From positions 1,406,501-1,470,500 of the forward strand of contig OY101126.1 in NCBI GenBank assembly GCA_956465555.1: a stretch of DNA of 64,000 nt, given 5' to 3'. The notes beneath the pieces are model-generated. The model saw only the letters and a list, made by a program, of their open reading frames with translations. It made no database searches and was not told where the DNA came from. Below are positions 8,568-42,931 of this stretch, piece by piece (within the stretch, counting starts at the first letter, position 1; every line of letters begins with the position of its first letter). The translations under genes and the position numbers were made by a program. This DNA comes from Nitzschia sp. pyKryTriq1 (Eukaryota > Bacillariophyta > Bacillariophyceae > Bacillariales > Bacillariaceae).

Positions 8568-10643
8568 TTAATCATTTTCATTTGCCAGCTGTTTCTTCCA
8601 CTTGACCCGAAACTCTTGTAATTGCTTGACCGGATGGTCGAACGATTTGGGCGAAGGCTGAACTTTGAAGCGATGGATCGGCAACGGATGCGAATGGACA
8701 AAATTTCCAATAGATTTGTCTTCTGCGTGTACGGAAAGCTGTTCCCGACGACAGAGAGGGGAGGTAATATATCGTGCCAGATCCACAGACATCCAATAAA
8801 AGGAGCCTTGGTTGAAAATTGGTCCAGTGAGTTGCCCGAATTCTTCCTTGGCACGCGGGGAACCCCCATAGACACGAACATTGTCGGGGAATCGCGGCAA
8901 CTGGTGGATAGTGTAATTGAATAGGTTTCGAGGGTAGATCAAGGTATCCGAGTCGGTCTTGGCAATGTAGTCAAAGTACACGTGTTCGTCCACAACCATG
9001 GTAGCGTACTTGAAGAAGGATTGTGACTTGCCTTCATTCATGTTTTCTCGAATGTTCAACAAAACGAGGTCCTTCTCATCGCTCAAAGAGGAGGCAGGAA
9101 GAGTCATCGGTACAGAGATGTTGGACTTCACACGCTCAGTCGGTCCGTCGGGATTACCACCGGCAACAAAAACATAAGCAATCTGGCATTCTTGAAGTAG
9201 CCGCGGGTGTTCCCGATTGTGGGATGACAAAAGCTCAATGAGAGAGCAGATTCGGTGGTTCCCAAGCGTGCCGTTCTTCGATTTGTAATAAGACAGATAG
9301 GTCTCCCGAATCGCAGCTCGTCGCTTGATCTCCTTGGCATCGTCTTTCATTGTAAAAATTCCCAAAAGTACTCTCGGCCCGTACTGGCAAGTACCGACGG
9401 TAGGGCTGATACGAGGGTTCGACCGAACTCGAGCTTCTTCCTCGGGATCTTCGTAAGCCACCAACCTAGTATCCTTGTAGGCATCCCACTGAGAAATGAA
9501 TGGAACATAGATATATCGTCCCAATACATTGGCATCATCTTCCACGAGATACGTGCTATCTTTCAGCGGGATGACGATGGTGGTGTTGGAAGGAATCTTC
9601 TCAGGAGTCATCATGGTTGACGGATCATGCACGATTCTCGTATGGGACGAATCATCATCGATGATCCGTTCAAGAATCATTTCTGTATGTTCATTTGGTA
9701 CTCCAGCATGAAAGGATGGATGAGCCATGACCTGTTTCAGGAGATGAAGAGACAAGACGACATAATCTTTTATTCTCGTTCGTGGTGCTCCTATGTTTGT
9801 GTTCGAGTCGGAAGAGGCAGCTCCAAAGTAGACCTTGGGATGTGAAAAGGCAGAAAGAGTACCAGCACTACTACTACTACTAGAAGCACTACCATCACCA
9901 ACTCCTCCACCAAACAGCTCTCGAGGCCAGACCCGGTCGGGATACAAGACGACCCGACTATGTGTGTACGCCACAAAATCAAAAGGGAAACCACCAGATT
10001 TTCGAGACGACGAAAATTGCGAAGGGTTCTTTTGGGTGCTGTGTTCCTCGTAGGAGGATCCAAGCAAGTACTCATACAGTCGATGGACCCGGTTCGATCC
10101 GCCATTCGTTGTGATGTTGAGATAAATCATATCGATCTCCGGAGCAAACTGATTTTTTGGATTGGGTTTGAATTGCCCTTCTGCCACGAAAGAATAAACA
10201 ATCTGACATGTCGAGGTAGAACGTGTAAATTCCGCCAGCGAGCAAATACTCGGCCACGTGGATCCTGTTCCACCAACAAGCTTGGTAAATATCTCCAAAT
10301 AGGTAGTGCGGATGATATTTCTCAATCTCATGTCGACTCCTTTTGGATTTGTGAAAATTCCCACAAAGATCCTTCGGTGATGTTCCTTTGCCGCTGGTAG
10401 TCGTACATTTGACTTCCCTTTGACGTTGATGATATGAGCGGGCTCTGGCGTCGCTTTCCCCAATTCCCTGAGAGTCGTCGGTGGTGCAGCAAGAAAAAAG
10501 GAAGACTGGTCTTTTGTCCCGACGGTGGAAGACGTTCGAATCAGACCCAGAGTGGTCGCAGCAACAATGCAGCATAGCAGTAAGCGAATTCTTGTGGGGT
10601 GGGACAACGCCTCACGCTGCTGTTTCGTTGTTCGTGCCCGCAT
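8568..10643 (-). CDS. Two-lobed GT31-like glycosyltransferase, copy A
   Basis: Probable Golgi type II glycosyltransferase of 691 residues, intronless. A signal anchor (LLLCCIVAATTLGLI) lies near residues 20-37. Two tandem GT31-like lobes follow. Lobe 1 has RRIFVGIFT and IIRTTYLEIF; lobe 2 has RVLLGIFTMKDD and AAIRETYLSYY. The second lobe has the DxD-type motif AKTDSDTLIYP expected for nucleotide-sugar and metal binding in beta-1,3-glycosyltransferases. The first lobe has THSRVVLYPDRV at the matching place, so it probably does not catalyse. A paralogue lies in inverse orientation at 28400-30442 and shares the upstream region. The sugar transferred cannot be read from sequence. Confidence 0.8.
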   Translation of the reverse strand: MRARTTKQQREALSHPTRIRLLLCCIVAATTLGLIRTSSTVGTKDQSSFFLAAPPTTLRELGKATPEPAHIINVKGKSNVRLPAAKEHHRRIFVGIFTNPKGVDMRLRNIIRTTYLEIFTKLVGGTGSTWPSICSLAEFTRSTSTCQIVYSFVAEGQFKPNPKNQFAPEIDMIYLNITTNGGSNRVHRLYEYLLGSSYEEHSTQKNPSQFSSSRKSGGFPFDFVAYTHSRVVLYPDRVWPRELFGGGVGDGSASSSSSSAGTLSAFSHPKVYFGAASSDSNTNIGAPRTRIKDYVVLSLHLLKQVMAHPSFHAGVPNEHTEMILERIIDDDSSHTRIVHDPSTMMTPEKIPSNTTIVIPLKDSTYLVEDDANVLGRYIYVPFISQWDAYKDTRLVAYEDPEEEARVRSNPRISPTVGTCQYGPRVLLGIFTMKDDAKEIKRRAAIRETYLSYYKSKNGTLGNHRICSLIELLSSHNREHPRLLQECQIAYVFVAGGNPDGPTERVKSNISVPMTLPASSLSDEKDLVLLNIRENMNEGKSQSFFKYATMVVDEHVYFDYIAKTDSDTLIYPRNLFNYTIHQLPRFPDNVRVYGGSPRAKEEFGQLTGPIFNQGSFYWMSVDLARYITSPLCRREQLSVHAEDKSIGNFVHSHPLPIHRFKVQPSPKSFDHPVKQLQEFRVKWKKQLANEND

Positions 10644-10654
10644 GGTGGTACACC

Positions 10655-13169: not shown

Positions 13170-13493
13170 GCTACGGCCGATCAAAACCCGCCGGATTATC
13201 AAAACCCGCCGGATTTTGGATGGTCATTAATGACCGATTCGACCGCAAAAATGACTGTCGACGGCTGGACCTCAGACTCCGCGCCATTTGGAATGTTTGT
13301 TTTCCTAATAGGAACTCATTCAAATGCTACGAGAGCAGCGGAATTGCATCCGATGTGTAAAAAAGAAAAATGCAGCGACGATCTTTTATTATCACTGCCA
13401 ATAGACAACCTCTACAGTACTTCGACTATCTTTCTATTAACGTTAACGATTACAAATGGGTGACGAGAATACACCTCCCAACCCTGGTCTAAA
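13170..13493 (+). repeat. Left terminal inverted repeat
   Basis: Contains a short ORF (MTDSTAKMTVDGW... to the stop at about 13463) whose TGA overlaps the ATG of a second frame beginning MGDENTPPNPGL. Both are repeated in the right arm because the arms are identical. Confidence 0.85.
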
Positions 13494-13546: not shown

Positions 13547-14365
13547 TTATTTGTCAGAGAAAGTGTTACCATTCTCCGAATGTATTTGTTTCGCAGCCAT
13601 GGCAGTTTCGTTCAATGAAAGGTAAGGAAGACGACCTGTCAGGCCCCAATCATCGTGCATTGGAACACCATTCTCATAATCCCTGCAAATTTGTATCATT
13701 CTGTCTTGGGTTGTGATGGGGATCAATTTCTTGATGATCCACTCCCTGGCAACTTTAGGACGAAGAATTCTATCGAGCAACAACAAAGTCTTTGCTGCTT
13801 CTATGCATTTATATTCCACACCATTATCTGGTAGTGGATAGGATAGAGCCGGCTCCTGCGCGCCTGCCTCAAGTGTTGGAGTTACCGGCCTTGCAGTTTT
13901 CCTTCTCTTAGTAGGACTGGGAGATAATGATGCGTGTCGAAACTTGTTTGAACGTGCAGGCTGTTTCAGTGAGTTTTGAAGGGCTTCTAGGTTCACTTGT
14001 GCCTCACTCTTTTTAGTGAGAACATTTGACGAGGAGCTTGAGAGCGCTGTGTTGAATCTGCTTGCAACATAGGCTGCGGAACTGAGTCCAGTAGTGCGAG
14101 ACAATTTGTTGGACAGGGACCCAAGCACCAATTCGGTTTCCTCTGCACGAGAAGTGACGGCTTGTTCAACTTGACTCAGGAGTTCTATGTGCTTACGAGA
14201 GAGAGAAAGGGACGCTTCCGCGCGTAAAGTTGAGAGGGCATCTTTCACGACTTGTGTAAAAAGCTTTGTACTTTGCACCAACTTTCTCGCAGATAGCTGT
14301 GCTTCGAAGGCATTATCCAAGCCCGACTTTAGACCAGGGTTGGGAGGTGTATTCTCGTCACCCAT
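13547..14365 (-). CDS. 272-residue protein of the TIR element
   Basis: Starts inside the right arm (MGDENTPPNPGL) and ends in the core. It is Ser/Leu-rich and probably helical to residue ~125, with a basic nuclear-localisation-like patch (SPTKRRKTARP) and then a C-terminal region containing WIIKKLIPITTQDRM and DDWGLTGRLPYLS. The latter is shaped like the W-x-GRP-x-L tail of some transposon-linked HTH proteins, but I do not recognise the family. It could be a DNA-binding accessory protein rather than a transposase. Confidence 0.55.
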   Translation of the reverse strand: MGDENTPPNPGLKSGLDNAFEAQLSARKLVQSTKLFTQVVKDALSTLRAEASLSLSRKHIELLSQVEQAVTSRAEETELVLGSLSNKLSRTTGLSSAAYVASRFNTALSSSSSNVLTKKSEAQVNLEALQNSLKQPARSNKFRHASLSPSPTKRRKTARPVTPTLEAGAQEPALSYPLPDNGVEYKCIEAAKTLLLLDRILRPKVAREWIIKKLIPITTQDRMIQICRDYENGVPMHDDWGLTGRLPYLSLNETAMAAKQIHSENGNTFSDK

Positions 14366-14651
14366 TTGTAATCGTTAACGTTAATAGAAAGATAGTCGAA
14401 GTACTGTAGAGGTTGTCTATTGGCAGTGATAATAAAAGATCGTCGCTGCATTTTTCTTTTTTACACATCGGATGCAATTCCGCTGCTCTCGTAGCATTTG
14501 AATGAGTTCCTATTAGGAAAACAAACATTCCAAATGGCGCGGAGTCTGAGGTCCAGCCGTCGACAGTCATTTTTGCGGTCGAATCGGTCATTAATGACCA
14601 TCCAAAATCCGGCGGGTTTTGATAATCCGGCGGGTTTTGATCGGCCGTAGC
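14328..14651 (-). repeat. Right terminal inverted repeat
   Basis: Reverse complement of the left arm. It supplies the start codon and first 12 residues of the core ORF, plus a 77-residue ORF (14591-14358) that ends on the start of MGDEN. Confidence 0.85.
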
Positions 14652-28399: not shown

Positions 28400-30442
28400 A
28401 TGCGGGCACGAACAACGAAACAGCAGCGTGAGGCGTTGTCCCACCCCACGAGGATCCGCTTACTGCTATGCTGTATTGTTGCTGTGACCACTCTGGGTCT
28501 GATCCGAACGTCTTCCACTGTCTTGGTGAAAGACCAGTCCTTCTTTTTTCTTGCTGCACCACCGACGACGACTTTCACGGAGTTGAAGAGGACGAAAACT
28601 AGTAATTATTATCACCACCGACGACTCTTTGTAGGAATTTTCACTTCCCCCAAAGCGGACATGCGATTGAGAAACATCATTCGCACCACCTATTTGGAGA
28701 TATTTACCAAGCTTGGTGGTTCGTCGTGGCCGAGTATTTGCTCGCTGGCGGAATTCACCTCAAGATCATCTAGTACTGGGAACACATCAGTTCCCTCCAG
28801 CTCTTGTCAGATTGTTTATTCTTTCGTGGCAGAGGGGCAATTCAAACCCAATCCGAAAAATCAGTTTGCTCCGGAGATCGATATGATTTATCTCAACATC
28901 ACAACGAATGATAGTAAATCGAATCGTGTCCATCGACTGTATGAGCACCTCCTCGGATCCTCCTACGAGGAGTATATCATCATGAACCCATCCTTTTCCT
29001 CATCATCTCCGAGGACTTTTGGTTTCCCTTTTGATTTTGTGGCGCACACGCACAGTCGGGTCGTCTTGTATCCCGACCGGGTCTGGCCTCGAGAGCTGTT
29101 TGGTGGAGGAGTTGGTGATGGTGGTGCTTCTAGTAGTAGTGCTGGTACTCTTTCTGTCTTTTCACACTCCAAGGTCTACTTTGGAGCTGTATCTTCCGAC
29201 TCGAACACAAACAGAGGAGCACCACGAACAAGAATAAAAGATTATGTCGCGTTGTCGTTTCATCTCCTGAAACAGGTCATGGCGCATCCATCCTTTCATG
29301 CTGGAGTATCAAATGAACAAACAGAAATGATTCTTGAACGGATCATCGATGATGATGATTCGTCCCATACGAGAATCGTGCATGATCCGTCAACTATGAT
29401 GACTCCTGAGGAGATTCCTTCTTTAAACACCACCATCGTCATCCCGCTGAAAGATAGCACGTATCTCGTGGAAGATGATGCCAATGTATTGGGACGATAT
29501 ATCTATGTTCCATTCATCACTCAGTGGGATGCCTACAAGGATACTTGGTTGGTGACATACAAAGATCCCGAGGAAGAAGCTCGGATTCGGTCAAACCCTC
29601 GTATCAGCTCTACCGTCGGTACTTGCCAGTACGGGCCGAGAGTACTTTTGGGAATCTTCACCATGAAAGACGATGCCAAGGAGATCAAGCGACGAGCTGT
29701 GATTCGGGAGACCTATCTCTCTTATTACAAATCGAAGAACAGCACGCTCGGCAACCATCGAATCTGTTCTCTTGCCGATATTGTGTCATCAGACCATCCC
29801 GACCAACCGCGGCTACTTCAAGAATGCCAGATTGCTTACGTTTTTGTTGCTGGTGGTAATCCAGACGGTCCACCTGAACGTGTGCATTTCAATGCCTCGA
29901 TACCGATGACTCTTCCTGCCTCCTCTTTGAGCGATGAGAAGGACCTCGTTTTGCTGAACATTCGAGAAAACATGAAGGATGGCAAGTCGCAATCCTTCTT
30001 CAAGTACGCCACCTCGATTGTGGACGAACACGTGTACTTTGACTACATTGCCAAGACCGACTCGGATACCTTGATATACCCCGACAACCTTTTGAACCAC
30101 ACCATCCGCCAGCTGCCGCGATTCCCCGACAATGTTCGAGTCTATGGGGGCTCGTCTCGTGCCAAGGAACGATATGGCGAACTCAAAGGACCAATTTACA
30201 ATCAGGGTTCCTTTTACTGGATGTCTGTGGATCTGGCACGATACATTGCGTCTCGTCACTGCGATCGGAAACATTTAGTGACTGTATATTCGGAAGACGT
30301 ATCCATTGGAAATTTTGTCCATTCGCATCCGTTGCCAATCCATCGCTTCAAAGTACAGCCTTCGCCCAAATCGTTCGACCATCCTGTCAAGCAACTACAA
30401 GACTTTCGCACTAAATGGAAGAAATACCTTTCTACAAAATGA
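28400..30442 (+). CDS. Two-lobed GT31-like glycosyltransferase, copy B
   Basis: 680 residues, intronless, same plan as 8568-10643: signal anchor, degenerate first lobe (RRLFVGIFT, HTHSRVVLYPDR) and intact second lobe (RVLLGIFTMKDD, KTDSDTLIYPDNLL). Most of the protein is identical to copy A by eye. Differences cluster in loops, with short Ser-rich indels, and at the C-terminus. This copy is on the opposite strand 18 kb away. Both keep open frames and the second-lobe motif, so both are probably functional. Confidence 0.8.
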   Translation: MRARTTKQQREALSHPTRIRLLLCCIVAVTTLGLIRTSSTVLVKDQSFFFLAAPPTTTFTELKRTKTSNYYHHRRLFVGIFTSPKADMRLRNIIRTTYLEIFTKLGGSSWPSICSLAEFTSRSSSTGNTSVPSSSCQIVYSFVAEGQFKPNPKNQFAPEIDMIYLNITTNDSKSNRVHRLYEHLLGSSYEEYIIMNPSFSSSSPRTFGFPFDFVAHTHSRVVLYPDRVWPRELFGGGVGDGGASSSSAGTLSVFSHSKVYFGAVSSDSNTNRGAPRTRIKDYVALSFHLLKQVMAHPSFHAGVSNEQTEMILERIIDDDDSSHTRIVHDPSTMMTPEEIPSLNTTIVIPLKDSTYLVEDDANVLGRYIYVPFITQWDAYKDTWLVTYKDPEEEARIRSNPRISSTVGTCQYGPRVLLGIFTMKDDAKEIKRRAVIRETYLSYYKSKNSTLGNHRICSLADIVSSDHPDQPRLLQECQIAYVFVAGGNPDGPPERVHFNASIPMTLPASSLSDEKDLVLLNIRENMKDGKSQSFFKYATSIVDEHVYFDYIAKTDSDTLIYPDNLLNHTIRQLPRFPDNVRVYGGSSRAKERYGELKGPIYNQGSFYWMSVDLARYIASRHCDRKHLVTVYSEDVSIGNFVHSHPLPIHRFKVQPSPKSFDHPVKQLQDFRTKWKKYLSTK

Positions 30443-33177: not shown

Positions 33178-34809
33178 ATGCCGCCCAAGCCATCTTCGAC
33201 AACTCCTCGTCTTTTGAGATCCTTTATCAATGGGAAGTACTGGCCGTCGCCGCCGCCGCCGTCGTCGTCGTCGCCGTCACCATCATCGACGAGTAGTAGT
33301 AGTAGTAGTAGTAGCAGTAGCACTGCCACCACGAACTGTTACAATTTGCAGTCGGCAGTGACGGGTCAACTCCGAGCGACGGTAGAGCCAGCGACTGCCC
33401 AAGCCTGTGATGCGGCACTCGAGGCCGCCCATCAAATCCAGCCACACTGGCACCGAGAATTCAGTCCCACGGAACGATCTCAATTGCTGCTTCGAGCGGC
33501 GGACCTGTTCCTGCAGGATGAAGAAATGCAAAGAATAGCGAGAATGGAGACGGAAGATACCGGTCGGCCCGTCTCGGAAACGCAATTCGAAGCGGCGGGG
33601 GCAGCGGATTGTCTACAGTGGTTTGCTGGATTGACTCGAAGTGTCGGGGGGCAGCACATGGAAATTCCTTCCTCTGCTGGCGCGGGCAGCGCCAGGAAGA
33701 ATAATTTTGGATACACGCGGCGAGAGCCCATCGGGGTGACGGTGGGAATTGGAGCTTGGAATTATCCAATGCAATCGGCTATTTGGAAATCGGCTCCAGC
33801 GTTGGCCTTTGGCAATACCATGGTCTTTAAACCAAGTGAATTTACTCCCCAAACGGCCTTGAGAGTAGCGGAAATCTATCAGCACGTTGGAATCCCCGAC
33901 GGTGTCTTCAATGTGGTATTGGGAACCGGCCCGACTGTTGGTAAGCAGCTAGTGGAAGATCCTCGAGTCGGCAAGGTTAGTTTTACAGGGAGTGTCCCCA
34001 CAGGTCGCCATATTTATACGAGTGCCGCAAAGGATTTCAAACGGGTCACTTTGGAGCTAGGAGGTAAAAGTCCACTCATTATCTTTGAGGATTCGAATTT
34101 GGAATCGGCCGTATCAGGAGCCATGATGGCCAACTGGTATTCCTCTGGACAAGTTTGCAGTAATGGAACGCGGGTCTTTGTACAGCGAAACATACTTGAT
34201 GCGTTTACTGCCAAGCTGATGGAGCGCACTGCCAAGCTGAAGATTGGAGATCCCATGCACCCCGAGACACAAATTGGTCCGTTGATCAATGAAGCGCATC
34301 GGAAAAAGGTGCAAGAGTACATTCGCATTGGTATTGAGGAAGATGATCAAGCGGATCTCATTTATGGAGGGCGGCGGATTTTGACCGACCAATATCCCAA
34401 TGGGAACTTTTTGGAGCCCACGATATTTGTTTGCCGACGAGACGATCATGATGATTGTCGTGACGATAATAATATGAGAATTGTTCAAGAAGAGATTTTT
34501 GGGCCCGTCATGGCCATTCTGCCATTTGATAGTGAGGAGGAGGTACTCCAGCGAGCCAACAATACCCCATTCGGCTTGGCAGCTGGAGTGTTTACCAAAG
34601 ATTTGCAACGGGCCCATCGAATGGTCGCTCAACTCAATGCCGGAATTACCTGGATTAACAATTACAATCTGGCGCCCGCCGAATTGCCCTGGGGTGGATT
34701 TGGGCAATCGGGGATTGGTTCCGAAAATGGATTAGCCGGTGCAGAGTCCTGGACGCGGATCAAATCCGTCTACGTTGAAATGGACGAAATGGAATCACCC
34801 TATTATTAA
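33178..34809 (+). CDS. Betaine aldehyde dehydrogenase (ALDH9-like)
   Basis: 543 residues, intronless. NAD-dependent aldehyde oxidation; in this subfamily betaine aldehyde or aminoaldehydes, giving glycine betaine, an osmolyte. Visible motifs: GIGAWNYPMQSAIWKSAPAL, FTGSVPTGRHI, catalytic Glu region VTLELGGKSP, catalytic Cys in SSGQVCSNGTRVF, and EEIFGPVMAILPF. The C-terminal PWGGFGQSGIGSENG is typical. The N-terminus has a Ser/Pro tract from GTC/TAG microsatellites. No peroxisomal SKL or clear plastid presequence. A decayed copy of its 3' end lies at 37564-37735. Confidence 0.92.
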   Translation: MPPKPSSTTPRLLRSFINGKYWPSPPPPSSSSPSPSSTSSSSSSSSSSTATTNCYNLQSAVTGQLRATVEPATAQACDAALEAAHQIQPHWHREFSPTERSQLLLRAADLFLQDEEMQRIARMETEDTGRPVSETQFEAAGAADCLQWFAGLTRSVGGQHMEIPSSAGAGSARKNNFGYTRREPIGVTVGIGAWNYPMQSAIWKSAPALAFGNTMVFKPSEFTPQTALRVAEIYQHVGIPDGVFNVVLGTGPTVGKQLVEDPRVGKVSFTGSVPTGRHIYTSAAKDFKRVTLELGGKSPLIIFEDSNLESAVSGAMMANWYSSGQVCSNGTRVFVQRNILDAFTAKLMERTAKLKIGDPMHPETQIGPLINEAHRKKVQEYIRIGIEEDDQADLIYGGRRILTDQYPNGNFLEPTIFVCRRDDHDDCRDDNNMRIVQEEIFGPVMAILPFDSEEEVLQRANNTPFGLAAGVFTKDLQRAHRMVAQLNAGITWINNYNLAPAELPWGGFGQSGIGSENGLAGAESWTRIKSVYVEMDEMESPYY

Positions 34810-34904
34810 ATAAACAAGATACGCTACTACAAAAGGCAGCGATGAGAGTTCATGGTCGGGTTATCAGTCTATCTAGCTATCTAGCTAGCTAGAGCTACTT
34901 TAGA

Positions 34905-35160
34905 GGAGTAGCGTGTTTTGGCGACTTGTTGTTGTTGTTGCTACTGCTGTTGGCGTTTTAGATGAGCTGAACGGCTTCTGGTGCAACGTTGTTTTTCAAG
35001 AAGGTACTACATTAGGATAGAGTCCCCCCTTAACAAACGGCGACGAGGGCCTCTACTAATCTAGTTCCTTTTCGGACGCGTTGTACGACTCTTCTCGTAC
35101 ATGGGTAAACAATGATCATACTACAGTATGAAGCAAATGAGGATTGGTTCGTTTCCCAGG
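34905..35160 (-). pseudogene. Decayed 3' fragment of the tyrosine recombinase gene
   Basis: This stretch matches 37795-38030, the 3' end of the intact recombinase gene. Shared blocks include GTTTTGGCGACTTGTTGTTG, GATGAGCTGAACGGC, TTCCTTTTCGGACGCGTTG and AAGCAAATGAGGATTGGTTC, interrupted by small insertions. The frame is broken. It faces the 3' end of the intact aldehyde dehydrogenase. Confidence 0.85.
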
Positions 35161-36016
35161 CTCTACTACTAGTAGTAGACTAGAGAGAAGATACGCCGCG
35201 AGATCCTTGAATAGACTAAACAGATCAAATAGAAGGGGGGGGGGGTGATGTGGGTGATTGCTCGAATTAGGGGTGTGATATTATTACACTTTGTACTTAT
35301 ACAAATACGCGCGAATATCGCAGTAATCATGTGTTGAATAAGAGGGACTTCGATCGGAAGAGTCTAACACCGAGCGAAGGACAGACACTGGTAATTCGAT
35401 CAAGGACGATTCGCTCACGGACGAACATGGATGAGTGACATCGATCTTGGATCTTGCAATGTCTATTGCGATCACTGACAACCTTGGGTGTGATGAGATC
35501 TAACACTTTACAAATGTCTCTTGAACCATGATCGAACATGTGGTATGTATTGGAGACATTCGAGACGGTTGTCAAGATGAATGTCAGACGTATTCTACTG
35601 GAGGAACCGTCCCAGCTAGAACAGGCAAATATCTAGCGTTGAATCTAGAACGTTGGATGTCAAGACGGAGCTATAGATTGATCGTGAAGTTAATCTTGGA
35701 ATCAAGATTGTGATCTTGAAAGAGAAAACGGATAGAGTAGAGTAATCAATCTGTATAGCTCACAATTCAAAAGGAGATATACAGACGTGTAATATCTTGA
35801 GTTGTGCCACGGGAATTTGATCACTCTCGTGTAGAACAATTGTTGACTACGTGGATTCAATTCTACAGTAAAGTTTGTCAGTCGTACGTACAAGTATTTC
35901 GATTACTTTAACAATCATGATCTCCAAAATACTGTGAAGATCGCATCGCGTCATTTTACGTGCCATCATGCGCGGCTTTTGATGGAAATGTAATATCTTT
36001 CGACGAGAAGGAAAAC
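35161..36016. other. Spacer before the ATP-grasp gene
   Basis: AT-rich, with many TCTTGATC/GATCAAGA-like words between 35400 and 35720 and a G run at 35234-35246. No gene recognised. Composition differs from the flanking duplicated blocks, so it probably entered separately, together with the ATP-grasp gene. Confidence 0.4.
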
Positions 36017-37414
36017 ATGTTTTACGTTCTCAACGTCTTCTCTCAGGGCTGGGCATCCTCATTTCTGTTCAAGAAGATAAGAGCCATGGAGTTGGTAAGA
36101 TCCAGGTCGAAATCAGAGCGGCGACTCCTCGCGTCCCAACCCAAACATCGACGTAATCGGACAGGTACTATGATGCCATTCGGCATTTCTAAAAAAATGG
36201 CAGGCATCGTTTTGATTTTTATATTACCTTTGTTCATTTTCATTGGCAATATTATTCATAAAAAGGCGTCGGGGAACTTGGATGAATATCTCCGTGTGAC
36301 CAATCTTCCTCATGCTCATGGTGTATTTGGTACTGAGTCTCCATCCTTTCTTAAAGAAGCGATTGCTGCATGTGAGGAAGCCAACAATGAGCGTGGAGGG
36401 TACCCATCCATGTATAAGACAATTTTGAAAGAAAGGAGAGCGCGCTGGCGGAAGGATGACCACAAATACAACTTCCTTCAGATGATAGACGACAAGCTTG
36501 GTGGATATATCTACGCAACAAAACTTGGTATACGCACACCTCGCGTCCTGTTTTGTGGGAAGGCCAAGGATATTTCTCAGAACATGCACTTGCTTGGCAA
36601 TAAGTATGTGATCAAACCGCTCAAGGGGCACAGTTCTCGCGGGGTGAAGGTAGTAAAGGATGGTGTTGAGCTATTGACGAAGGAACGTGTTAGCTATGAT
36701 ATATTGGCCAAGCAGTATAATGGAGACGAAAAAGAGACTATTGTTGAGGAGCTTATTGAGAGTGCCAATCCAAAGTATGATGGTCTCATCCCACCGGACT
36801 TTAAGTTTTTTGTTTATGAAGGAGGTGTATCTGAGATAATGTGGCAAATGGACCGAAACAAGGGGCAAAAATGTCGGGATTCCTTTGATGTTGTTTCCTC
36901 CCAAAAAAGTCTGCTAAAAGAAGTCGGTGGTCTTAGTATGCCCAGTTGCTCTCAAGACACACGGAATGCACTAGACGATGCACCAAGACAAAAAGCTATG
37001 GAAGATGCTGTGCAGATCTTAGCAAGCAATGCCGGTCCGAATTGGATAAGAATCGATATGTTCGATTCCAAGGATTACGGTCCAGTACTAGGGGAATTCA
37101 CGCCCTTTAGTGCGGAAGGTTTCGACCAACCTCGGGGTAGCTGTATCATGTCATATCTTTTTATTGCTCACGCGGACCATGGGGCTCCAAATGATGACAG
37201 CGACCTAATCCAAAACGATCTTACCAAGCATCTTACCAAGTTTAAGGGTAGGATGAGAATGCAGAATAAAATGAATGCAAAACTTTTCAACAGCACCACC
37301 TTCGATTTTTATCCTCAAGAAGCTCGTGAATGGTTGCAATATGATGAAATGACAAAATGCAAAAAAAAGGTGATGGAGGCACATCTTCTTGAGGCTGATT
37401 CCACACAAAAGTAA
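36017..37414 (+). CDS. TupA-like ATP-grasp protein, type II membrane
   Basis: Start taken at ATG 36017; the frame is open further up only with a GTG, and ATG 36086 is an alternative. A membrane anchor (AGIVLIFILPLFIFIGNII) precedes a lumenal domain: KYNFLQMIDDKLGGYIYATKL, ATP-binding YVIKPLKGHSSRGVKVV, VEELIES, PPDFKFFVYEGGVSEI and WIRIDMFD...GPVLGEFTPF. These match the TupA-like ATP-grasp family found in bacterial teichuronopeptide and polysaccharide biosynthesis clusters, where the enzyme ligates an amino acid or peptide to a sugar acid. In an alga a role in modifying a secreted glycan is inferred. It sits between the two halves of the duplication at 34.6-38.0 kb. Confidence 0.8.
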   Translation: MFYVLNVFSQGWASSFLFKKIRAMELVRSRSKSERRLLASQPKHRRNRTGTMMPFGISKKMAGIVLIFILPLFIFIGNIIHKKASGNLDEYLRVTNLPHAHGVFGTESPSFLKEAIAACEEANNERGGYPSMYKTILKERRARWRKDDHKYNFLQMIDDKLGGYIYATKLGIRTPRVLFCGKAKDISQNMHLLGNKYVIKPLKGHSSRGVKVVKDGVELLTKERVSYDILAKQYNGDEKETIVEELIESANPKYDGLIPPDFKFFVYEGGVSEIMWQMDRNKGQKCRDSFDVVSSQKSLLKEVGGLSMPSCSQDTRNALDDAPRQKAMEDAVQILASNAGPNWIRIDMFDSKDYGPVLGEFTPFSAEGFDQPRGSCIMSYLFIAHADHGAPNDDSDLIQNDLTKHLTKFKGRMRMQNKMNAKLFNSTTFDFYPQEAREWLQYDEMTKCKKKVMEAHLLEADSTQK

Positions 37415-37488
37415 CAGTGACAATATTCACAGCCGGCAATCTATCAATATCTGTCATGGGCATGACTTTAGTTGTATCGAAAGTTATT

Positions 37489-37532
37489 TCGCTCGAAATA
37501 CTTTAACTTGTCGCTCGAAATACTTTAACTTG
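37489..37532. repeat. Two tandem copies of a 22-bp unit
   Basis: TCGCTCGAAATACTTTAACT plus TG occurs twice head to tail with no mismatch, ending four bases before the GT31-derived fragment at the duplication junction. Confidence 0.85.
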
Positions 37533-37535
37533 CCT

Positions 37536-37563
37536 GGATGGTCGAACGATTTGGGCGAAGGCT
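37536..37563. other. 28-bp fragment of the GT31 gene at a junction
   Basis: Identical to 8632-8659 and to the matching place in copy B (reverse complement near 30362-30389), which encodes the PSPKSFDHP part of the enzyme. It is joined directly to the aldehyde dehydrogenase fragment. It is probably filler DNA captured during break repair; the identity is seen directly and the mechanism is inferred. Confidence 0.75.
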
Positions 37564-37735
37564 AAGTCAATGCCGGAATTACCTGGATTAATAATTACAA
37601 TCCTGCGCCCGCTGAATTGCCATGGGGTGGATTTGGGCATTCGGGGATTGGTTCCGAAAATGGATATGCCGCGGATCAAATTGGTCTACGTCGAAATGGA
37701 CGAAATGGAATCACCCTCCTGAAGTACATGATAAT
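37564..37735 (+). pseudogene. Decayed 3' fragment of the aldehyde dehydrogenase gene
   Basis: Matches 34636-34805 (AATGCCGGAATTACCTGGAT, GGTGGATTTGGGC, GAAATGGACGAAATGGAATC) with substitutions and a deletion of about 18 bp over the GAESWTR codons. Followed by the same short spacer (AAAAGGCAG) that separates the intact gene from the recombinase fragment on the left. Confidence 0.88.
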
Positions 37736-37769
37736 AAAAGGCAGAGATGACCTCAAGAGTATCGGATTA

Positions 37770-40406
37770 TCATTCTACCAAGCTACGGGGAGTAGATTGT
37801 TTTGGCGACTTGTTGTTGTTGTTGTTGTTGACGTTTTGCATGAGCTGAACGGCCGGTGCAATCTTGTTTTTCAAGGTACGTTTGTCATACGAGCTTCGCT
37901 GCATTTGGATAGAGTGCCCCATGAACAAGGCGAGGGCCTCCAGTTCCTTTTCGGACGCGTTGGATTCCTCTCGTACATGGGTAATGATCATACTACGAAG
38001 CAAATGAGGATTGGTTCGCTTCCCAGTGTATTTGAAACAGCTTCGTGTGACTCGGGCAAATACCGAGTCTTGGGTCAGCGGCTTTCCGGTCCGTGTTTGG
38101 ACAAAGAGGAAATTGGTGGATGGTCGAAGTGCCGGTCGCCACCTTTCGATAAAGTCGTCCAGGGCCGGGGTCAATTCCGGAGCTAGTTGCAGGGGAGGCC
38201 GTTCTCCGTATGATTTTCCCGTCTTGTAATCTTCCGGCCCGTGCTTGATGTAATAGCAGTACTGCCCATTACTGGCATTTTCTTTGTCTTTGACCAGCGT
38301 CCGTCCAATTTCCAATTCACGGATCGTCCGTTGTCGATCCGGGATGCTGGCAAAAATAGCCAAAATCAAATACTTTTGAAAGGCAGATGCGATTTCCTCT
38401 TCTTCCAAACTATAAAGACGTTCTGTATCTTCTTTGCGATACCGTCGTCGTTCCGATTTATTGTCAGTAATAAGATCCTGGTAACGTTGTATGAGTTGTA
38501 GTGTTTCATCTTTGGTCTTTTCAATGACTTGGAGATATTCCGGCCAAGAAAGCCACTTTTTTTGTTCGTCACTGGATTTGGGCGCGACGCGTTGTTTTTG
38601 ATTTGCCGTCCGATGCAATTTTCGAATCTCCTTGATGAGGGGAATATCCGTAAAGGTATTTCCCCCGTAGGTAGAGTCGGTTTCACTTTCTTGGGCAAAT
38701 CGGAATTTGAGCAACTTGAGGAGGCCTCTTAGAAAATTAGCTTCGTAGGCGGCACTGACTTGACGTTCCGATCGTAGCCACATTACAAATTCAATTAAAG
38801 TTTGAGCTGATTCTTTCTCCTTGCTGGGGATGATCGAGTAGATCGAAAGGGAGGCCGTGTTGTCGGATTGATGTTGGTGTTGGTGATGTTGGCGGTGTTG
38901 GTGACTGTGGACGTACCAACCAAGGAAAAGTTTGGCATGGCGTAAATAGACATTGGCTGTCGCCGGTCGGATAGGATCTTCCTGTGACTGCGTCGAGGGT
39001 TGCGTCATGAACTTGTCAAAGGCTTGCAGTTCCAAGGCCAAGGTAGGGTATACGGTTTCGTAGTCGGCTGGAAGTCCATATTCGTACGACAACGACGAAG
39101 ACGACGACGAAGAAGAAGAAGATGAAGGTTGGGTGGCTGCCTTGTCGTCCTGATCCTCATGTTTGGTACTTCTACTAGTAGTAGCCGCGTCGGTAGTTGC
39201 TTTGGCTTTGCGGCGCCTTTGAGAAGCCTTGTCATTGACCACTTCATCTTTATAACCCGAGAAAAGGATAGGTGGTGATGATGATTCCTCCCCCTTGCTG
39301 TTCTCGTCAGGATGATAATAATGATTATTATTGTTGTTGTTGTTGTTGTTGTTATCTGCTGATCCTTGGATGATATCTTTCTTCGCGGGCGCCATGGGAG
39401 TAGTCGTGGTAGGAAAGGATCCAACTGGGGCTTCCCATGCATCAAGTGATGGATCATCTGGATCTGGATCTAGTACTAGGCGATCTGTGCGAACACGGCT
39501 TGTCTGATTATGTTGTTGTTGTTGCTTTTGTTGTTGTTGTTGTTGTTGCTGTTTTTCTTGTTGTTGTTGAATAATCATCCTCATGACGACTGCTCTGGTT
39601 TGATGAGCCACGAGGGGTGGGAATGAAAAGTCGGAAATGAGTAGAGACGAAAAGACTTCGGGTCGTTCCACGAAATCTTGTGCCAGCAAAATCAATGTTT
39701 GGATGTCTGTAAGACCCGTTCGTTCCAAATGATGATTCAAAATAAGAATCATACGTGTACTACTATCTGCATCATTCCCAATGCTGCCTTCGGCCGCCAT
39801 GGCCTTTCGTAGTAATGCCCATCCTCCATCACCATTGTCATGATCCTTGTCATGATCATTGTCATGATCCTGATCTTCAGCAGAGAGTGATGATGCCATT
39901 CCAAGGCGGAAAAAGACTCTTGGAGGCAGCTCGTCGTCCTTTGGATGATAAAAATATTGCGGGCGATGCGGGTGGTATGATGCCGAGAGAGCAAAGGCAT
40001 CCACAACCACAACATCCTGACAACCACATCCTGATGATGCCACTAATAGCAGAGCGGCGAGGATGGTACACGAGAGGAATCCAAGTCCGCCGACTTTTAT
40101 GGATCCTGATCCTGATGATGATGATGATGATGGCTGCCGGAATGAATGGGAGGAACGATGCTGGCTTGTTGTCTCATGATGATGAGCCCAGCAGAAGAAG
40201 CACGACCCTGCTGGATGATGATGCATATCGGTACTTTTACTTGCACTTTTACGTGTACCTGATGATGATGATGTACAACATGGACGTGTTGTGTTGCTGC
40301 TTCCTCGAACAATATCAAGTCGCATTCCTGATGATGATGATGATGATGATTGCTGTGCGATATTAGGATTTATTGATTCCAACAAGTTCATCCAAAATTG
40401 GATCAT
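37770..40406 (-). CDS. Eukaryotic tyrosine recombinase, possibly organelle-targeted
   Basis: 878 residues, intronless. The C-terminal ~350 residues have the tyrosine recombinase/integrase core: first Arg in RQRTIRELEIG, a Lys-bearing turn (YKTGKSYG), HLLR (about 801-804), MGHS (about 831) and Tyr in RSSYDKR (about 840). An N-terminal SAM-like core-binding region precedes it (VYLRHAKLFLGWYV...). The first ~350 residues are Ser/Gln/Asn-rich. Near residues 105-130 a hydrophobic stretch ends VVVDAFALSAS, which resembles the cleavage site of diatom plastid presequences, but it lies too far from the first Met unless the true start is further in. Conservative strand exchange is the expected reaction. 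Crypton-type transposons and domesticated derivatives use this fold; I saw no element ends around it. Confidence 0.8.
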   Translation of the reverse strand: MIQFWMNLLESINPNIAQQSSSSSSSGMRLDIVRGSSNTTRPCCTSSSSGTRKSASKSTDMHHHPAGSCFFCWAHHHETTSQHRSSHSFRQPSSSSSSGSGSIKVGGLGFLSCTILAALLLVASSGCGCQDVVVVDAFALSASYHPHRPQYFYHPKDDELPPRVFFRLGMASSLSAEDQDHDNDHDKDHDNGDGGWALLRKAMAAEGSIGNDADSSTRMILILNHHLERTGLTDIQTLILLAQDFVERPEVFSSLLISDFSFPPLVAHQTRAVVMRMIIQQQQEKQQQQQQQQKQQQQHNQTSRVRTDRLVLDPDPDDPSLDAWEAPVGSFPTTTTPMAPAKKDIIQGSADNNNNNNNNNNHYYHPDENSKGEESSSPPILFSGYKDEVVNDKASQRRRKAKATTDAATTSRSTKHEDQDDKAATQPSSSSSSSSSSSLSYEYGLPADYETVYPTLALELQAFDKFMTQPSTQSQEDPIRPATANVYLRHAKLFLGWYVHSHQHRQHHQHQHQSDNTASLSIYSIIPSKEKESAQTLIEFVMWLRSERQVSAAYEANFLRGLLKLLKFRFAQESETDSTYGGNTFTDIPLIKEIRKLHRTANQKQRVAPKSSDEQKKWLSWPEYLQVIEKTKDETLQLIQRYQDLITDNKSERRRYRKEDTERLYSLEEEEIASAFQKYLILAIFASIPDRQRTIRELEIGRTLVKDKENASNGQYCYYIKHGPEDYKTGKSYGERPPLQLAPELTPALDDFIERWRPALRPSTNFLFVQTRTGKPLTQDSVFARVTRSCFKYTGKRTNPHLLRSMIITHVREESNASEKELEALALFMGHSIQMQRSSYDKRTLKNKIAPAVQLMQNVNNNNNNKSPKQSTPRSLVE

Positions 40407-41368
40407 GGAGGAAAAGAAGGAGGGCTATTAGAGCCGTATTACTCACTGACTGCGACTGATTGATTGACTTACTGACTTACTGACTGGCTGTTTCTACAAA
40501 TAATGCAGACATCAGTCAGGTATACGATTATTAATACCACTCGGAATGTTGCAAAAGAGTACCAGTAGTCTACGGTAGTCGTCCTAATAATGCAATAATT
40601 ATAAACGACAATGATCACAATGCGAAAAAGGATTTGGAGAGAAGATGGGTTATTGTTGGACTGAGGTAACTTTTACGTACGAACAGTACAGTGTACCCCA
40701 CGCTACTGTACGCGTGTAATACCGGTACAGTATTACCTACTGGTACCAGTACGCACTCGCGAACGAGATGACGCGAGCATACCGGTAAGAGACGACGACT
40801 GTTCTGTACGGTACCCGTGCATAGACTTGGAGACTACAGAAGTACCTGTACTCTTGAGTCTTGAGGGACTGACGAATGTTTGAATTGAGGGAGCCCCCAA
40901 ATAATACATACGCGCTTAGAAAAAGTCGAAACGGGGGCGGGAAAAGTCAAATCCCCGTTTGTACTCGCGCGCGTATCCCGCCGTGCCTCGGACGTGATAC
41001 AAACTACCGGTGAATGTATTCGCACAGTAAGTACCTGGTATACCAGGTATGTACTCGTACTACTGTATTGTTATGCGCGCACTTGGAACTTATTCGTCCG
41101 TTCAACGCATAATAATTTCGAATTTCCTCTCACATTATTATGGATAGTAAAAAGAAGAGATTAATAGCCTCTGCCACACTATTATTGGCCACAACCTCAA
41201 ACCAAGCTTTGCTTTACGATTCTCTCAATAAGTTTTGGCTTTTGCTGTTGTTGTCAAACATCAGCGAACTGAACAACAACCTAACCTATACGGTACAGTA
41301 CATTGATATTCGTACTCCCCCTGACGAGTGACTGAGGAATCATCATCATCATCATCATCATCATCGTC
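40407..41368. other. Spacer between divergent genes
   Basis: Holds TACTGACTGACT-type repeats (40440-40495) and several GTAC/ACCGGT palindromes (40690-40820, 41030-41060). A 63-codon plus-strand frame at 41140 (MDSKKKRLIASATLLL) has no support beyond being open. No gene recognised. Confidence 0.4.
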
Positions 41369-42931
41369 ATGGTAGAAATTCATCAGAGGAGCCAGCAGCA
41401 TGTCTTCTTCATGGACTTCTTCCGTCCTCGCACTATGATCACCGTTGGTATTTTTTTAACCTTTATTATCAGCAACATACAACAGAACAATTACCCCCTG
41501 ACTGTGATGGTTGAGCGCTCCTCCTCTCCCGCTGCCGCGGATGCTCCTCATACTACTACGACGAAGTGCAACGAAGAAAGTACTAGTAGTGATGCTGCTG
41601 CTGCATCGAGGAACAGCATCCACCACCCTCAAAGCGACAAAATGGCATCAGTGGATGCGCTTCTTGTGGATGTGAGCAATAACCAACAGCAGAGAACCTT
41701 TACGAGTACAGACAATCAGCTACAGCAACAGCAACACCAACACCAACACCAACAACCACAGAATAAACCTTATATTCCATCAAGGATCGAATCATATTTC
41801 CTGGATCATGGTCGAGAGCTGGGACTTGACAACGAGGAAACGCCGGCATCGGGATGCACAGCATGGAAGGATCCTAATTCACCTATTGCGCCCGAGCTGG
41901 CCGCATTTAGATCGGAATTAAAGGTATACCAAGAAAAGATATTGGCATTCACCACCACCAAGAAGAATGGGACAGCAGCAGTAATAACTGATTTGCGACA
42001 GGACATCCTCAAACATCGTGACCACACGATATGTGACTCATTGAAACTTCATCCGGACGGTTTGAGGGGGATCTTTCCTACCAACGCAAGTCTCTCGCAA
42101 ACATCCAATGGATTTCTCGAGCCCCTATTTGCACCCATGCGCAGTCCAGAGATTTGTTTTGTTGAACAACAAGAACCTGCTGATGGTGGTGGTGGTGGTG
42201 GTGCTAGTAGTAGCGGTGAAGGCTTGCTGGCACTGGACTACTTGGTGCATGATTTTTCAGCATATTGTCGGAAACTCAAGCCCACATCGCGTGTCGTGCT
42301 CTTCGACATGGGAGCATCCCTAGATTTTCATGGGAGTCAACAGTCACCTGCTATATTCTTGACGCAAATCTATCAGAGTTTTGGGTTTCATTGGGATCAT
42401 ATTTACGCCTATGAGATCACGAAACAGGATGCGGCAGATGTTTTTCAAAACGTTCCCGAGGAGCTTGGTCATGCTTATCATTGGATCAACGCCGGTGTGG
42501 ACTCGGACAAGGACTCAAAGATGAACCCTTGGAATATGCTTCGTCGGGAATACACAGAAGATGATTTTGGTACGTACGGATGATATTCTGTCTTTATCAT
42601 ACTAGTTTGTCCTCCTCCGGCAATTTTCTCATCATGCTCTTTGTTCTCGTCTTGTTGATGCTATTATGCATGACCACCACCATACGAATAATACATAGTG
42701 GTTGTCAAATTAGACATTGACACCCCATCTGTCGAAGTTCCTCTTGTTCAACAACTGAGCGAGTCTCCAGAGCTTTTGAAATTAGTGGATGTTTTTTACT
42801 TTGAGCATCACGTCCTTTTGAGTGAACTCGCCCCTGCATGGGGGGAAACCATGCAGGGCAGTATCTTGGCATCGATGGAGCTTTTTTCAGACTTGCGTGC
42901 ACATGGAGTGGATGCGCACTATTGGGTATAA
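41369..42931 (+). CDS. Secreted/anchored methyltransferase-like protein
   Basis: Exon 1 41369-42569, intron 42570-42698 (129 bp), exon 2 42699-42931; the splice gives DDF-VVVKLDIDTPSVEV. N-terminal anchor (MITVGIFLTFIISNIQ), Gln/His-rich linker, then a Rossmann-like domain: VVLFDMGASLDFHGS (glycine-type loop, motif I place) and IYAYEIT (acidic residue that would bind SAM ribose). The end, VVVKLDIDTP...VDVFYFEHHV, recalls FkbM-like proteins. It is a membrane-anchored relative of SAM methyltransferases by reading; activity is not assured. Confidence 0.6.

Follow-up and report, generated by a model that had tools for sequence, protein, structure and literature searches.

The subject of this report is a predicted tyrosine recombinase gene of the diatom Nitzschia sp. 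pyKryTriq1, which lies in a 64,000-base stretch of contig OY101126.1 (positions 1,406,501 to 1,470,500 of the forward strand; hereafter the window, in whose numbering positions are given unless another record is named). The assembly amounts to 40.65 Mb in 20 contigs, and the window belongs to contig C12 (1,646,914 bases). On the minus strand, the list of open reading frames (ORFs) and their translation give an 878-codon frame at 37770..40406, the longest from ATG to stop in the standard code, and this extent was confirmed exactly. The conserved recombinase part, residues 443-866 with core-binding and catalytic domains, occupies 37811..39080 on the same strand, as delimited by alignments, a profile match and a fold model. 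It is preceded by a largely low-complexity stretch of poly-Q, poly-N and poly-S that extends from Met170 to the recombinase part (39081..39899, minus; translation and profile search). These low-complexity tracts swamp whole-protein searches of the 878-residue frame.

The frame carries the complete residue set of a tyrosine recombinase, with all boxes on the minus strand and located by alignment: R691 (and R693) in PDRQRTIREL, of which the first Arg box PDRQRT spans 38328..38336 from R691 to R693; K728, the catalytic Lys, in DYKTG (38223..38225); H801 and R804 in PHLLR (37995..38006); H831 in MGHS (37914..37916); and the nucleophile Y840 in SSYDKR (37887..37889). In a 13-row alignment with cyanobacterial proteins, R691, R693, K728, R804 and Y840 are invariant and H831 is nearly so; we read R691 rather than R693 as the catalytic Arg of its box. 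The R-K-H-R-H-Y set thus places the predicted protein in the tyrosine recombinase superfamily. An earlier, sequence-only reading of this DNA had proposed a full catalytic set in one open frame and a stand-alone nuclear gene, and both proposals hold: the residues are located within the 878-codon ORF, and the single intact frame sits in a 1.65 Mb nuclear contig.

Fold and cyanobacterial relatives

The fold model of the recombinase part reached a mean pLDDT of 81.7 and a pTM of 0.62, and a structure search matched it to XerA (E 5.9e-5), Tre (E 1.6e-3) and Cre at probability 1.00, with TM scores by query length that are low (0.33-0.38) for all three. The model thus predicts a recombinase fold. With the solved structures of XerA, XerD and Cre/Tre the Nitzschia recombinase has the fold and the catalytic residues in common, at 10-14% identity in the fold alignments, and a profile of the cyanobacterial family described below matches XerD at E 4.1e-9. 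An inverted-repeat search of about 35000-42000 found no dif- or lox-type site near the Nitzschia gene.

The relatives found are cyanobacterial throughout. A tblastn search of residues 443-878 against plasmid records returned 20 matching records, every one of them cyanobacterial (E 5e-46 to 3e-9). A scan across 84,980 prokaryote species, blind to any site without a match to its two peptide patterns and with E values relative to the candidate stretches only, yielded 14 confirmed loci, again all cyanobacterial (E down to 1e-64). Ten of these 14 loci were taken forward, and the eight genomes that were searched again all matched a second time. The closest relative, L017, is a locus on a 59.8 kb contig of a Pseudanabaenaceae metagenome-assembled genome, with 40% identity over query residues 13-422 (E 4.8e-57), 34% in another search and 39% in the alignment; other named members are BAZ78649.1 on plasmid4 of Aulosira laxa NIES-50, BBD63617.1 on plasmid6 of Nostoc sp. 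HK-01 and WP_179076821.1 of Nostoc sp. C057. The family profile matches residues 407-866 at E 1.1e-84 in a one-sequence search, and the core-binding and catalytic parts align throughout at 22-39% identity (13 rows), with the boxes PDRxRT, DYKTG, PHxxR, MxHS and YDxRT common to the Nitzschia recombinase and the nearer cyanobacterial rows. Together, these comparisons argue for homology to the cyanobacterial recombinase family over both domains. Most cyanobacterial members carry an extra N-terminal domain of about 165 residues, whereas the Nitzschia protein is largely low-complexity there; some members are also short, such as L019 with 493 amino acids.

The family is rare and patchy in cyanobacteria: of 386 genomes of the phylum, four match at E <= 1e-10, the centre genome G001 being one of these. 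The relative on the 56.7 kb Aulosira plasmid is accompanied by ParA and VapC genes. We rejected an origin from a phage or an algal virus: phage records gave no match at E <= 0.1, no relative was confirmed in viral contigs by three scans restricted to peptide patterns, and structural matches to algal-virus recombinases, at 11-20% identity, are at the level of the general fold.

A separate observation concerns the DNA in front of some of the cyanobacterial genes. Seven recombinase genes of the Nostoc-type clade have a palindrome of 31-35 bases, conserved in an island-like manner, 127-325 bases 5' of the first start codon; it lies at 4198 in L009, 4206 in L010 and 4156 in L011, which are plasmid records, and at 5198 in L018, 5199 in L020, 5161 in L021 and 5324 in L022, which are genome contigs, the L022 palindrome being a variant with matching changes in both arms. 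It is not common to the other rows examined outside the clade. A near-identical copy, at 3501 in L084, neighbours a relaxase gene; the Nostoc commune plasmid that carries it is absent from the recombinase matches. Small enterobacterial plasmids also give weak matches (E >= 0.07), and the one inspected stands beside a mobilisation gene. To our eye the architecture resembles a lox- or dif-type site, and the palindrome may be a recombination site, an origin of transfer or an operator; its role is uncertain because of the copy near the relaxase gene and the weak enterobacterial plasmid matches. Unlike these Nostoc-type genes, the Nitzschia gene has no such palindrome nearby, nor does the searched genome sequence with up to three mismatches, and a target site shared between the alga and the cyanobacterial genes was rejected on this ground.

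Copy number and history of the locus

Within the searchable part of its own genome, no second copy of the recombinase was found. The 18 other protein matches consist of a local fragment and of weak matches (E of 7e-5 or higher), nearly all of these over low-complexity tracts. At the DNA level, the gene with both intergenic flanks gave 58 matches, namely itself, the local fragment, 54 to the poly-Q tract and two to a trinucleotide run at 41335-41368, and among the 40 of 157 candidates that were scored there were no repeated flanks. Nor did about 35000-42000 hold an interrupted inverted repeat with arms of at least 11 bases, at most one mismatch and a spacer of 4-9; should an element exist in one copy only, its short direct repeats could escape the own-genome searches. 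The absence of recognisable transposon ends, as first noted from the letters, is consistent with these results. The lone PF00589 match in the genome, at C1:1809428-1809730 in a short frame of 158-197 codons, is likewise a tyrosine recombinase domain, but PF00589 detects this fragment and not the Nitzschia gene, hence the model is unable to exclude other diverged recombinases. The fragment may be DIRS-like.

The local fragment gives the gene a history. An aldehyde dehydrogenase gene (33178..34809, plus strand; PF00171, E 1.5e-155) is its original convergent neighbour, and self-comparison revealed two copies of the junction between them, each with the dehydrogenase 3' end followed by the recombinase 3' end in convergent orientation. 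The left copy (34627..35159) has an intact dehydrogenase 3' end and a decayed recombinase 3' end, and the right copy (37561..38026) has the decayed dehydrogenase and the intact recombinase 3' end. Own-genome searches and comparison of the copies place the decayed, frame-broken recombinase fragment at 35056..35160 on the minus strand, about 2.9 kb from the main gene and beyond a TupA-like ATP-grasp gene (longest frame 35960..37414, plus strand; PF14305, E 5.1e-7). The copies align in two blocks, at 84.0% identity over 175 columns and 84.5% over 97 columns (71% over the whole); their recombinase part has 40 substitutions in 246 aligned bases, distributed as 12, 12 and 16 over the codon positions, and nine insertions or deletions, five of which are not multiples of three. 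Because each junction copy keeps one gene intact and the other broken, the recombinase gene adjoined the dehydrogenase gene before the duplication and stayed open while the fragment decayed. An open main copy beside a decayed fragment suggests, without proving it, that selection has acted on the recombinase, and the decayed 3'-end copy in the same locus marks the recombinase as a long-resident chromosomal gene.

Several other features of the window were recorded in passing. The ATP-grasp gene is bracketed by the two direct junction copies of about 0.5 kb, an arrangement that recalls either a target duplication of unusual length or an insertion linked to repair. Two window ORFs, 8571-10646 on the minus strand (a Galactosyl_T match, E 2.7e-5) and 28400-30439 on the plus strand, are inverted relative to each other about 18 kb apart, with a main block that is 88.5% identical, and a perfect 324-base inverted repeat occupies 13170-13493 and 14328-14651.

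The plastid genome and the 5' end of the gene

The recombinase gene is nuclear, and its host is a photosynthetic alga. The assembly includes a plastid contig, C20 (123,508 bases), with a Photo_RC match and with an ORF that we take to be psbA, and the antenna-protein family has 69 matches in the assembly, counted exon by exon. Two unrelated observations came with these searches: on a 1.65 Mb contig, a photosystem reaction-centre match that contains an in-frame TGA (G000:C11:1340421-1341221) is probably a nuclear insertion of plastid DNA, and two pairs of antenna-protein matches that score equally and lie some 40 kb apart on each of two contigs (G000:C1:4283352-4323732 and G000:C3:3144038-3187064) may reflect a large segmental duplication. 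A plastid-encoded partner was sought and not found: the serine resolvase family PF00239 has no match in the genome, and no member of the recombinase family was seen in the 64,000 readable of the 123,508 plastid bases, a partial negative, the rest being N. Tyrosine recombinases do occur in stramenopile-type plastids, where TyrC is described from Heterosigma and Kryptoperidinium and is speculated to convert multimers of plastid DNA to monomers (PMC2873285, PMC2410131). According to PMC2410131, TyrC is plastid-encoded, with 298-318 residues in Heterosigma, and Heterosigma TyrC most resembles recombinases from the mitochondria of two green algae; the Nitzschia gene is nuclear and has 878 codons.

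The sequence-only reading had also proposed that a hydrophobic segment ending in DAFALSAS may be a plastid presequence. The motif stands as described: in the open frame a hydrophobic stretch begins at residue 109 and runs into VVVDA-FALSAS (39975..40082, minus strand, from the translation and a codon scan; F138 at 39993-39995), although whether this part is translated is doubtful. VDA-FAL puts a Phe at +1 of an ASAFAP-like motif, in agreement with the rule that this residue be F, W, Y or L (PMC4329603). What such a presequence looks like here can be seen in the antenna-protein loci of this genome: six of 12 have an AxAF(A/V)-type motif 15-18 residues after a Met (an internal Met in one of the six), and in the other six the motif is not in the chosen frame or no frame was printed. 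In the recombinase, the nearest Met upstream of F138 is 77 residues away. No signal peptide was found at the N-terminus of the continuous frame, where the hydrophobic core lies 108 residues after Met1 and 48 after Met61. A transit stretch was expected to be rich in hydroxyl residues, poor in acids and net positive; of the 20 residues that follow the putative cut, one is acidic, two are K/R, three are His and two are Ser/Thr. A Phe motif behind a hydrophobic stretch within the first 150 residues occurs in two of 28 window ORFs, the recombinase included.

Codon usage casts further doubt on the start of the frame. Scores were learnt from the other long ORFs of the window, with base rates from the window alone. 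Codons 1-60 score 0.00 (lower in five of 26 other ORFs), with +0.22 for codons 1-20 alone, and codons 61-130 score -0.10, the lowest of 27 window ORFs, vs +0.22 and +0.23 thereafter; an earlier scan with fewer training ORFs likewise turned positive at about codon 130. A low score alone is no proof of non-coding sequence, as codons 1-60 of another window ORF with a signal-like start score -0.33. That the first 130 codons stay open is, as we read it, weak coding evidence, since the TCA/ATC/CAT repeats there are free of stops in all frames. At the -3 position, 14 of 15 other ORF starts (none of them verified) have a purine, 12 of these an A, and none has T; T is found at Met1 and Met6, and G at Met28, Met61, Met170 and Met203. 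Met170, 3' of the hydrophobic stretch (39897..39899, minus; codon scan and start contexts), has the context GGA ATG G. Enumeration of 5' introns produced 31 loose models and seven with a GTRAG donor, none of which, in our judgement, combines good sites with a Met near the core. What remains of the proposed presequence is thus the hydrophobic stretch and its VDA-FAL motif; with no near Met, weak codon usage to about codon 130 and no good intron model, the presequence itself is unproven and doubtful, and Met170 is a serious alternative start.

Origin, mechanism and meaning

In a 33-row tree, with the Nitzschia gene as the lone eukaryote row in this as in the smaller tree, it groups with a divergent set of eight cyanobacterial rows (91/81), and these together with L017 (83/81); an 18-row tree places it with four members of that divergent set (86/87). 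The simplest reading is a transfer from a cyanobacterium, whenever it took place, the time of the plastid ancestor included. On the present evidence we put a probability of roughly 0.68 on a laterally acquired, retained and probably active site-specific tyrosine recombinase of cyanobacterial type, encoded by a single-copy nuclear host gene. Several results weigh against this. Scans with Pfam and NCBIfam found no integrase model in the Nitzschia recombinase, a single-sequence search of solved structures returned no recombinase, and a PHROG integrase match obtained with the last 256 residues (E 1.2e-8) is absent with the 436-residue part. The H801 column varies among relatives, with Gln in the closest relative L017 and Lys in L024 and L027, the Nitzschia gene having His. 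A profile of the relatives' N-terminal domain found no counterpart in residues 1-450 (best E 0.18, in the poly-Q tract). Approximately unbiased tests reject none of three placements, with L017, with the Nostoc-type clade or with both (p 0.163, 0.125 and 0.121), and the trees do not firmly place the Nitzschia gene. Not all relatives need be plasmid-borne, as matches lie 3.47 Mb (G050:C1) and 1.22 Mb (G178:C2) into their contigs. Were the family ancient in algae, the inference of lateral transfer could fail, the comparison set being prokaryotes and viruses. The Nitzschia recombinase is a diverged branch.

Among the competing explanations, contamination by bacterial DNA or an artefact of assembly is barely credible. 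The relatives found are all bacterial, but the gene lies well within a 1.65 Mb contig, in a window that also holds a HECT-domain gene; a fragment of it was duplicated in the same locus, its codon usage from residue 131 onward agrees with neighbouring ORFs, and no bacterial match found exceeds 40% identity. It is very improbable that the gene belongs to a Crypton or another transposon, or that it arose recently from such an element. CryptonS elements are known from oomycetes and from one diatom, Phaeodactylum tricornutum, a tyrosine recombinase is their main gene, as here, and Cryptons are often very low in copy number (PMC3212892). CryptonS elements have 5- or 6-bp terminal direct repeats, however, whereas at the Nitzschia locus no element could be delimited; one copy and no repeated flanks were found in the genome, no DUF3504 or GCR1_C model is among the Pfam matches, and the relatives found are cyanobacterial. 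The Crypton-derived gene that the sequence-only reading offered as its alternative is not supported by this evidence, Cryptons being set apart without direct sequence comparison.

Loss of recombination, with the fold kept for DNA binding or regulation, is a possibility of a different kind that we consider rather unlikely. Long low-complexity parts such as the N-terminal one of the Nitzschia protein are common in nuclear regulatory proteins. There is precedent in the DUF3504 genes derived from Cryptons; these lack most of their catalytic residues (PMC3212892), whereas here the residues are present, the Tyr nucleophile included. A plastid-targeted recombinase, with a bipartite presequence of signal peptide, VDA-FAL cleavage site and short transit peptide, that resolves multimers of plastid DNA or acts on plastid plasmids is unlikely too, yet deserves the most serious hearing of these alternatives. 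The Phe at +1 fits the rule cited above, half of the antenna-protein loci have comparable motifs, acidic residues are fewer than basic ones behind the putative cut, codons 1-20 score well, many cyanobacterial relatives sit on circular plasmids, and the assembly includes a plastid contig. The distance of 77 residues from Met to F138, vs 15-18 in six antenna loci, tells against it, as do the negative score of codons 61-130, the T at -3 of Met1, the lack of a convincing exon among the intron models, the mere two Ser/Thr of the putative transit stretch and the recurrence of the Phe motif in another window ORF.

For the retained cyanobacterial-type recombinase that we favour, the following course may be proposed. 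The gene would have entered the nucleus by lateral transfer, at a recent or an ancient date, from a family that the searches found in cyanobacteria alone, with many members plasmid-borne, and would have been kept there as a host gene. Tyrosine recombinases act as four protomers on two sites, with a Tyr that attacks the DNA backbone and a Holliday junction that forms and is then resolved. Once translated, the Nitzschia enzyme would presumably cut and rejoin DNA through Y840 by way of such a junction, and its job may be like the one that we infer for its plasmid relatives, namely the resolution of multimers of circular DNA or the integration and excision of such DNA. Its default compartment would be the nucleus or cytosol because the gene's 5' end gives a plastid presequence no support; action on plastid or plasmid DNA is possible.

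To our knowledge, eukaryotic nuclear tyrosine recombinases are known mainly from transposable elements. The open-licence full-text literature, in the parts accessible and with subscription papers and preprints lying outside it, yielded no description of a cyanobacterial-type recombinase in a diatom or algal nucleus. One more specific scenario, which we regard as tentative and distinctly unlikely, is that of a nucleus-encoded recombinase of cyanobacterial and possibly plasmid origin that is imported into the plastid, there to resolve multimers formed by the plastid genome or by plastid plasmids; if true, a plasmid maintenance enzyme would have been turned into an organelle DNA maintenance enzyme. 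If the recombinase is inactive, the gene would be a case of lateral transfer and retention. If it is active, the enzyme and its residue Y840 would be defined tools for finding out which DNA is resolved or excised in a eukaryote, plastid or plasmid circles included.

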